Shown here: in pieces, positions 13,125 through 13,327 of the stretch
Layout of the letters: each line of letters begins with the position of its first letter
How positions within the stretch are numbered: the first letter of the stretch is position 1
From: Camillea tinctor
Taxonomy: Eukaryota; Ascomycota; Sordariomycetes; Xylariales; Xylariaceae
Direction: 5' to 3'
DNA length: 44,998 bases
Assembly: GCA_022578605.1 (NCBI GenBank)
Contig: MU394174.1
Span: forward strand, 1 to 44,998
The notes under the pieces: model-generated
The model's database searches: none
Seen by the model: only the letters and a program-made list of their open reading frames with translations
What the model was told of the DNA's origin: nothing
Position numbers and translations under genes: made by a program

Positions 13125-13304
13125 GGCGTGGTGGTCTAGTGGTATGATTCTTGCTTAGGGTAGTTGCGATTGGAGAAGTTCCTTCTCTCTCTTCGCCCTT
13201 TCCTACTTGCAAGAGGTCCCGGGTTCGATGTGAGTCCTTACCTTGCTTACTACTACTCCTTATGAATATAGTCACTAATACAGCAAATAGCCCCGGCCAG
13301 GCCC
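13125..13304 (+). tRNA. tRNA-Pro(AGG) with two insertions
   Basis: Segments 13125-13160, 13208-13229 and 13291-13304 give a 72-nt tRNA. Acceptor 5' strand GGCGTGG (13125-13131). D arm and perfect A box TGGTCTAGTGG (13132-13142). Anticodon stem CTTGC/GCAAG (13150-13154, 13209-13213). Loop TTAGGG...T with anticodon AGG at 13157-13159. A 47-nt intron (13161-13207) sits after position 37, as normal for nuclear tRNAs, and contains CCT (13202-13204) able to pair with the anticodon. The T-stem CCGGG (13219-13223) and TTCGAT are then interrupted by 61 nt (13230-13290). After that come C, CCCGG, CCAGGCC and discriminator C. Without the insertion the T-loop is TTCGATC, the T-stem pairs 5/5 and the acceptor stem pairs 6/7, with G13128 opposing G13300. 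A pol III T-run follows. It may be a working gene with an odd intron or a disrupted copy. Confidence 0.8.
13230..13290 (+). other. 61-nt GT-AG intron-like insertion in tRNA T-loop
   Basis: Begins GTGAGT and ends AATAG, with CACTAATAC (a branch-site-like sequence) ending about 11 bases before the 3' end. That is the anatomy and size of a spliceosomal intron of this organism. It splits the B box after its GGTTCGA core. The boundary could shift by one base (13231-13291) and still restore a 7-nt loop. No bulge-helix-bulge structure for the tRNA splicing endonuclease was evident by eye. Confidence 0.6.
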
Positions 13305-13317
13305 TCAAACAACTTCA

Positions 13318-13327
13318 TTTTTTTTTT
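13318..13327 (+). terminator. Pol III terminator (T10)
   Basis: Ten consecutive T on the + strand, beginning 14 bases after the discriminator base of the tRNA. This is where a pol III terminator should lie if the full interrupted gene is transcribed. Confidence 0.75.

Follow-up and report, generated by a model that had tools for sequence, protein, structure and literature searches.

The genome of the fungus Camillea tinctor (Xylariales) contains tRNA genes that are interrupted within the T arm, and the inserts concerned are most likely spliceosomal introns residing in pol III genes. In eukaryotes the introns of nuclear tRNA genes generally follow position 37, where a protein endonuclease (SEN) excises them. 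One gene for tRNA-Pro(AGG) and three for tRNA-Lys(CTT) carry GT-AG inserts elsewhere, and we predict that the spliceosome takes these out, though we hold this with less confidence for the Pro copy than for the class. It is probable, moreover, that they represent a second eukaryotic route of tRNA splicing, in which the spliceosome would turn pol III precursors with T-arm introns, encoded by several genes of one nuclear genome, into functional tRNA-Lys and tRNA-Pro, and in which one Pro precursor would need both machines. The original prediction had raised a spliceosome-type intron in a pol III gene as one reading of the Pro insert alone; at the level of sequence that reading has stood, and it is strengthened by the three Lys genes and by an intron in the U6 gene.

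Within the window, the whole stretch of 44,998 nucleotides that was analysed and that represents contig C124 of the assembly (44.69 Mb in 154 contigs), the tRNA-Pro(AGG) gene at 13125..13304 is split twice, and the layout originally predicted for it was confirmed base for base (Table 1). The anticodon intron of 47 nt follows position 37, and the second insert, which starts with GTGAGT and ends with TAG, lies in the T loop between T59 and C60. When the latter is removed, ARAGORN calls a tRNA-Pro(agg) with a 47-nt intron, and the 6/7 acceptor stem, the discriminator C and the T10 run are all present. Neither the anticodon intron nor the insert of this gene contains a T run of four or more. The B box is split by the insert and matches the consensus at 9 of 11 positions, down from 11 of 11, so that this copy could be transcribed weakly; the A box and the T10 run are retained. 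Among the four interrupted genes the Pro gene is the weakest candidate for expression. Predicted folds of this gene lacked a cloverleaf both with and without the insert and were left out of account.

Table 1. Features of the interrupted tRNA-Pro(AGG) gene (positions in the window) and of other loci in the assembly (contig:position)
Feature	Location	Strand	Remarks
tRNA-Pro(AGG) exon 1, from the 5' strand of the acceptor stem through position 37	13125..13160	+	First 27 positions identical to L004, and to L002 and L003 except position 4
A box TGGTCTAGTGG, predicted pol III promoter	13132..13142	+	Pattern match; same in the uninterrupted copies
Anticodon-loop intron, 47 nt, canonical place	13161..13207	+	In the uninterrupted copies this place holds introns of 47, 23 and 21 nt
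Exon 2, from position 38 through T59; GGTTCGAT within it is the initial portion of the B box	13208..13229	+	
GT-AG insert, 61 nt, predicted U2-type spliceosomal intron, T loop 59/60	13230..13290	+	Unique register; removal restores the tRNA
5' splice site GTGAGT (predicted)	13230..13235	+	Hexamer shared with 3 of the 17 homology-placed mRNA introns
Branch site CTAAT (predicted), in CACTAATAC; branch A at 13278, 12 nt before the 3' splice site	13275..13279	+	
3' splice site TAG (predicted)	13288..13290	+	Insert reads GTGAGT...CACTAATACAGCAAATAG
Exon 3, C60 to position 72 (13291-13303), and discriminator C (13304)	13291..13304	+	CCCCGGCCAGGCCC, identical to L004
T10 run, predicted pol III terminator	13318..13327	+	
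U6 snRNA gene (L048, 1501-1660)	C10:489447-489606	+	Only one above cut-off
tRNA-like 83-nt matches	C3:72998, C44:30378, C147:2617, C140:2647, C109:73157, C101:39911		Covariance search

A search of the whole assembly with the Pro gene as query, together with the count and alignment of tRNA-Pro(AGG) genes that had been suggested alongside the original prediction, identified three more genes (L002, L003 and L004), all with an unbroken T arm reading GGTTCRATCCCCGG across the site. Because the uninterrupted copies read in this way, the Pro insert has only one possible register and its ends are fixed. No target-site duplication was found at the Pro insert, the ends of which share no base with the flanks. 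Over the 72 positions of the tRNA body, comparison of the window gene with the three copies shows 2, 2 and 3 differences; none of these is private, and all 72 of its positions occur in at least one uninterrupted copy. The combination of bases G4, T28, A40 and G68 (numbered in the 72-nt body) is special to it among the four genes. Judged from its letters, the tRNA body of the window gene shows no decay, the expected mark of a pseudogene, beyond that of the other copies. The G-G mismatch of the acceptor stem (positions 4/68) is common to the window gene and L004, and the 6/7 stem is therefore not peculiar to the window gene. When run without introns ARAGORN misses the window gene and the uninterrupted copies alike, and with introns allowed it reports a tRNA at all three copies (L002 being miscalled as Leu) and none at the window gene. 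Rfam likewise reports no tRNA in the window at the gathering level, for which the cut-off is 29 bits; scores for the three copies are 41.9-49 bits.

Removal of the inserts restores a cloverleaf in tRNA-Pro(agg) and in the three tRNA-Lys(ctt) genes. This was observed in a splicing test in which no insert position was specified beforehand: each GTNNG...YAG pair spaced 45-110 nt apart was removed in silico and ARAGORN was run on each product. From 59 long stretches (275,827 bases, some overlapping, both strands) the procedure generated 13,805 spliced sequences, and a tRNA spanning the junction appeared in four of them. One is the Pro gene with 13230-13290 taken out and the others are the three Lys genes; in all four the splice coincides with the predicted ends. 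The stretches include the four loci along with 30 others chosen for tRNA genes, and the count is consequently silent on the genome-wide frequency of such inserts. The same test on 68 short pattern-match loci returned nothing beyond the four controls.

Seven tRNA-Lys(CTT) genes were found by searching the assembly with tRNA-Lys(CTT). Four of these (L028-L031) are unbroken in the T arm and contain an anticodon intron of 8 nt, and the remaining three (L078, L079 and L080) have no anticodon intron and a T arm that is broken after G52 (52|53) by GT-AG inserts of 66, 63 and 61 nt, all different in sequence. Anticodon intron and T-arm insert are mutually exclusive in this tRNA (4/7 versus 3/7), and the window Pro gene has both. 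The 5' splice sites of the Lys inserts read GTTAGT, GTGAGT and GTAAGT, and their branch-like motifs CTAAC, CTGAC and TTAAC place the A 15, 15 and 13 nt, respectively, from the end of the insert. In contrast to the unique Pro register, the ends of the Lys inserts can be slid over 4-5 registers, one of which is GT-AG. The three Lys inserts may go back to one ancestral insertion and so should not be read as three independent events. Compared with shuffled sequences their interiors give z values of 1.0, 1.8 and 3.1 for the three pairs, with the splice signals kept; interiors so little above shuffles combined with persisting signals are the pattern expected of introns retained for their splice signals. 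The Lys introns sit just before the B box, and the last G of the intron completes an 11/11 B box. Both tRNA-Lys(TTT) genes that were found are uninterrupted, and one pattern for an interrupted Lys gene had 0 matches in the collections viral_contigs and genome_contigs, neither of which is meant for fungi.

Downstream of the tRNA, all seven Lys genes have a common 3' trailer, CAA-TCC followed by a hairpin and then a T-run, with the T-runs located 41-48 nt downstream of the genes. The hairpin is represented by six distinct sequences, in which pairing holds for 95.2% of cells; both sides are changed in five of the seven stem pairs, a value reached by 7 of 500 shuffles and compared with 0-1 in slid controls. 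The covariation score was reached by none of 500 shuffles, and the number of pair types was unremarkable (96 of 500 shuffles as high), though the test covers seven genes only and related sequences can exceed shuffles. That the interrupted Lys genes share this covarying trailer argues against their decay.

To place the inserts among the mRNA introns of the host, homologous proteins were aligned to ten gene regions in a splice-aware manner that required GT-AG ends and had no other splice preference. The 17 introns with 5/5 homologue support were counted, two with 3/5 support and several minor ones were dropped, and at least three of the 17 that look like alignment artefacts (starting GTCAAA, GTCGCC and GTTAGG) were left in; ab initio intron sets, based on hexamer coding scores or on ungapped peptide joins, were too noisy and were left out. 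The 17 introns measure 48-122 nt (median 70), a range within which the tRNA inserts of 61-66 nt fall. YTRAY occurs 6-35 nt from the end in 13 of the 17, the nearest such site lying at 12-17 nt in 9 of these 13, and CTAAT, CTAAC, CTGAC and TTAAC are all among the host sites, CTAAT occurring in homology-placed introns of L036, L042, L043 and L044. The host signal is loose nonetheless, in that 4/17 introns lack YTRAY at this distance and only 4/17 start with GTNAGT. From branch A to 3' splice site the distance is 12 nt in Pro, 15, 15 and 13 nt in Lys and 11 nt in U6. In their GT and AG ends, branch distance and length the inserts conform to U2-type introns and are predicted to be spliceosomal. 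Chance was gauged on 105 kb, both strands, which give 627,328 segments of 61, 63 or 66 nt; 2,342 begin with GT and end with AG, and GTNAGT...YAG with YTRAY 6-35 nt from the end is found in five, one being the Pro insert itself, in tests framed after the inserts had been seen. TTTT is absent from the four tRNA inserts and from the U6 intron and present in 9/17 host introns, and its absence is in keeping with genes through which pol III has to read.

A covariance search for tRNAs gave 63 matches, 62 above the cut-off, and three of them are the interrupted Lys genes. No T-arm inserts were seen in the remaining matches, where the low-scoring, repeat-like L159 and L160 have no ARAGORN gene; the list is incomplete, as the four Pro genes are missing from it. 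The pattern GGTTCRAN{0,4}GTRAGT had 36 matches versus 39 in the reversed control, one of them in the window, and the other 35 have no upstream A-box-like motif and yield no tRNA when spliced. Patterns for an intron just before the B box, in which TAAC, TGAC or TAAT is followed at a distance by YAGGTTCRANYC, gave 16, 15 and 64 matches against 12, 10 and 13 in reversed controls. Of the 16 TAAC matches two are Lys genes and one is a normal tRNA-Ser, and the 13 examined gave no new case; of the 15 TGAC matches one is a Lys gene and four resemble a dispersed repeat, and the 10 examined gave no new case; and of the 64 TAAT matches one is a Lys gene, and no new case came from 10 that were examined or from five more located within stretches examined for other matches (two in L119 and one each in L123, L127 and L129). 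By their letters, the rest of the 64 are mostly dispersed repeat.

This dispersed repeat, which contains TAATAGTAAGTGTAGGTTCGATTC, is present in L119, L123, L127 and many of the 64 TAAT-pattern matches, and in L119 two copies face each other to form a long inverted repeat. It carries a B-box-like GGTTCGATTCC and may thus be tRNA-derived or pol III-related; the copy in L127 is called by ARAGORN, and not by Rfam, as a doubtful tRNA-Tyr(ata). Separately, tRNA-like matches of 83 nt scoring 22.5-45 bits occur on six contigs (L068, L071 and L158-L161; Table 1). L068 and L071 are near-identical, and ARAGORN calls them tRNA-His and tRNA-Tyr; a repeat family derived from a tRNA is suggested by this.

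Other readings of the inserts differ in how well they accommodate these data. The foremost is that an intron-like piece of 61 nt entered one of four redundant Pro genes and that no tRNA is made from it, a possibility we regard as unlikely. It draws on the existence of the three uninterrupted tRNA-Pro(AGG) genes and on the B box cut to 9/11; in addition, passages of a review (PMC4090602) hold that eukaryotic tRNA genes with a short insertion in the D or T arm, in most cases single members of a large synonymous set, are supposedly pseudogenes, with algal and nucleomorph exceptions. A pseudogene is nevertheless at odds with a tRNA body whose every position is found in uninterrupted copies, with the rarity of the full set of intron signals and with the same kind of insert in three tRNA-Lys genes that have covarying trailers. 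The recent disrupted copy that the original prediction had entertained is weakened by the body match, and the three intact copies and the damaged B box leave it a possible fate for the Pro gene.

It is considerably less probable that the inserts are second tRNA introns that the tRNA splicing endonuclease cuts at a bulge-helix-bulge (BHB). The same review describes, in the passages available, introns outside position 37 in the tRNA genes of nucleomorphs, including the T arm, and similar non-canonical introns in Cyanidioschyzon merolae, with several introns in one gene (PMC4090602), and at the GT-AG register the central helix of the inserts here forms 3-4 of 4 pairs. The outer helix, however, forms 1 of 4 and the inner helix 0-2 of 4 pairs at this register, though the canonical anticodon-intron controls do no better and the geometry is therefore not decisive. 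Nor would such cutting lead one to expect GTNAGT, YTRAY and YAG to recur in four inserts whose interiors differ. According to those passages the ectopic introns of Guillardia are 3-24 nt long and those of C. merolae are held to depend decisively on BHB motifs (PMC4090602); the inserts here differ from both in being 61-66 nt long and in carrying the three splice motifs. Their positions at 59|60 in Pro and 52|53 in Lys, along with the spliceosomal signals, also set them apart from canonical SEN introns, of which the window Pro gene and its uninterrupted copies each have one, the 47-nt intron fitting the canonical place.

The nearest precedent for a spliceosomal intron in a pol III gene is U6 of Schizosaccharomyces pombe, for which a passage in PMC8917221 describes an mRNA-type intron in a pol III transcript that is removed by the spliceosome. 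The U6 gene of C. tinctor resembles it in having a GT-AG intron: it is split after ACAGAGAAGAU by 60 nt reading GTAAGT...CACTAACATACTCACAG, within which lies a core B box, GTTCGAATC. The SRP RNA is uninterrupted, and introns are therefore not present in every pol III RNA here. The cases reported here depart from S. pombe U6, a part of the spliceosome, in that the host RNA is a tRNA encoded by dispersed genes of two isoacceptors, and in that the Pro gene adds an intron of the endonuclease type. Spliceosomal introns in other stable-RNA genes of fungi, though not in tRNA, are indicated by the title of a work cited in PMC11782384 (an mRNA intron in the 18S rDNA of deuteromycetes) and by part of a paper on introns associated with snoRNAs (PMC3596301).

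Splicing is usually coupled to pol II, and on this general ground the interrupted loci could instead be transcribed by pol II as intron-containing non-coding RNAs, the product being the spliced RNA and not a pol III tRNA. We consider this very improbable, as the A box and T-runs remain in place, with full B boxes in the Lys genes, the inserts are free of T runs of four or more, in contrast to 9 of the 17 homology-placed mRNA introns, and U6 provides a pol III precedent. Delivery of the intron by a mobile introner-like element, a source that had been suggested originally and for which part of PMC12730881 provides a rationale in that it credits introners with intron creation across diverse eukaryotes, is the least credible proposal, since the genome search for relatives of the insert recovered only the insert itself in the 44.7-Mb assembly (E up to 10, though diverged copies can be missed), which largely contradicts it unless the family has decayed past recognition, the Pro site lacks a target-site duplication, and the Pro interior resembles neither the U6 intron nor any Lys insert (against shuffles, z -1.6 to 0.3, with Lys and U6 at 1.0 to 3.1 among themselves).

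Under the spliceosomal reading that we favor, pol III would transcribe the tRNA together with its T-arm intron, and branching and lariat removal by the major spliceosome would then yield a normal tRNA. In the Lys genes, the final G of the intron would rebuild the first base of the B box and so keep the promoter whole. Excision of the 47-nt anticodon intron of Pro would be a separate step carried out by the tRNA splicing endonuclease, and the Pro transcript would consequently need both splicing machines. With its intron of the same type, the U6 gene points to a way by which RNA made by pol III could gain access to the spliceosome, a route that is established in fission yeast. Each of the two tRNAs also has uninterrupted genes (three for Pro and four for Lys), and none of the interrupted genes therefore has to work.

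Among the open-access literature matches listed, which were judged mainly by titles and the beginnings of abstracts and within a scope that mostly excludes subscription papers, none reported spliceosomal introns in tRNA genes. The part of the tRNAscan-SE 2.0 description available presents the search for non-canonical introns for the archaeal mode (PMC8450103), and genes such as the Pro and Lys genes described here are thus easily missed. The procedure of splicing in silico and then running ARAGORN, which gave no extra match in 13,805 trials, is applicable to every fungal genome. If the inserts are spliced, tRNA gene counts would be wrong wherever gene finders skip such genes, the spliceosome would have to compete with tRNA folding, end trimming and the endonuclease for structured precursors made by pol III, and part of the tRNA supply of this fungus would depend on the spliceosome.
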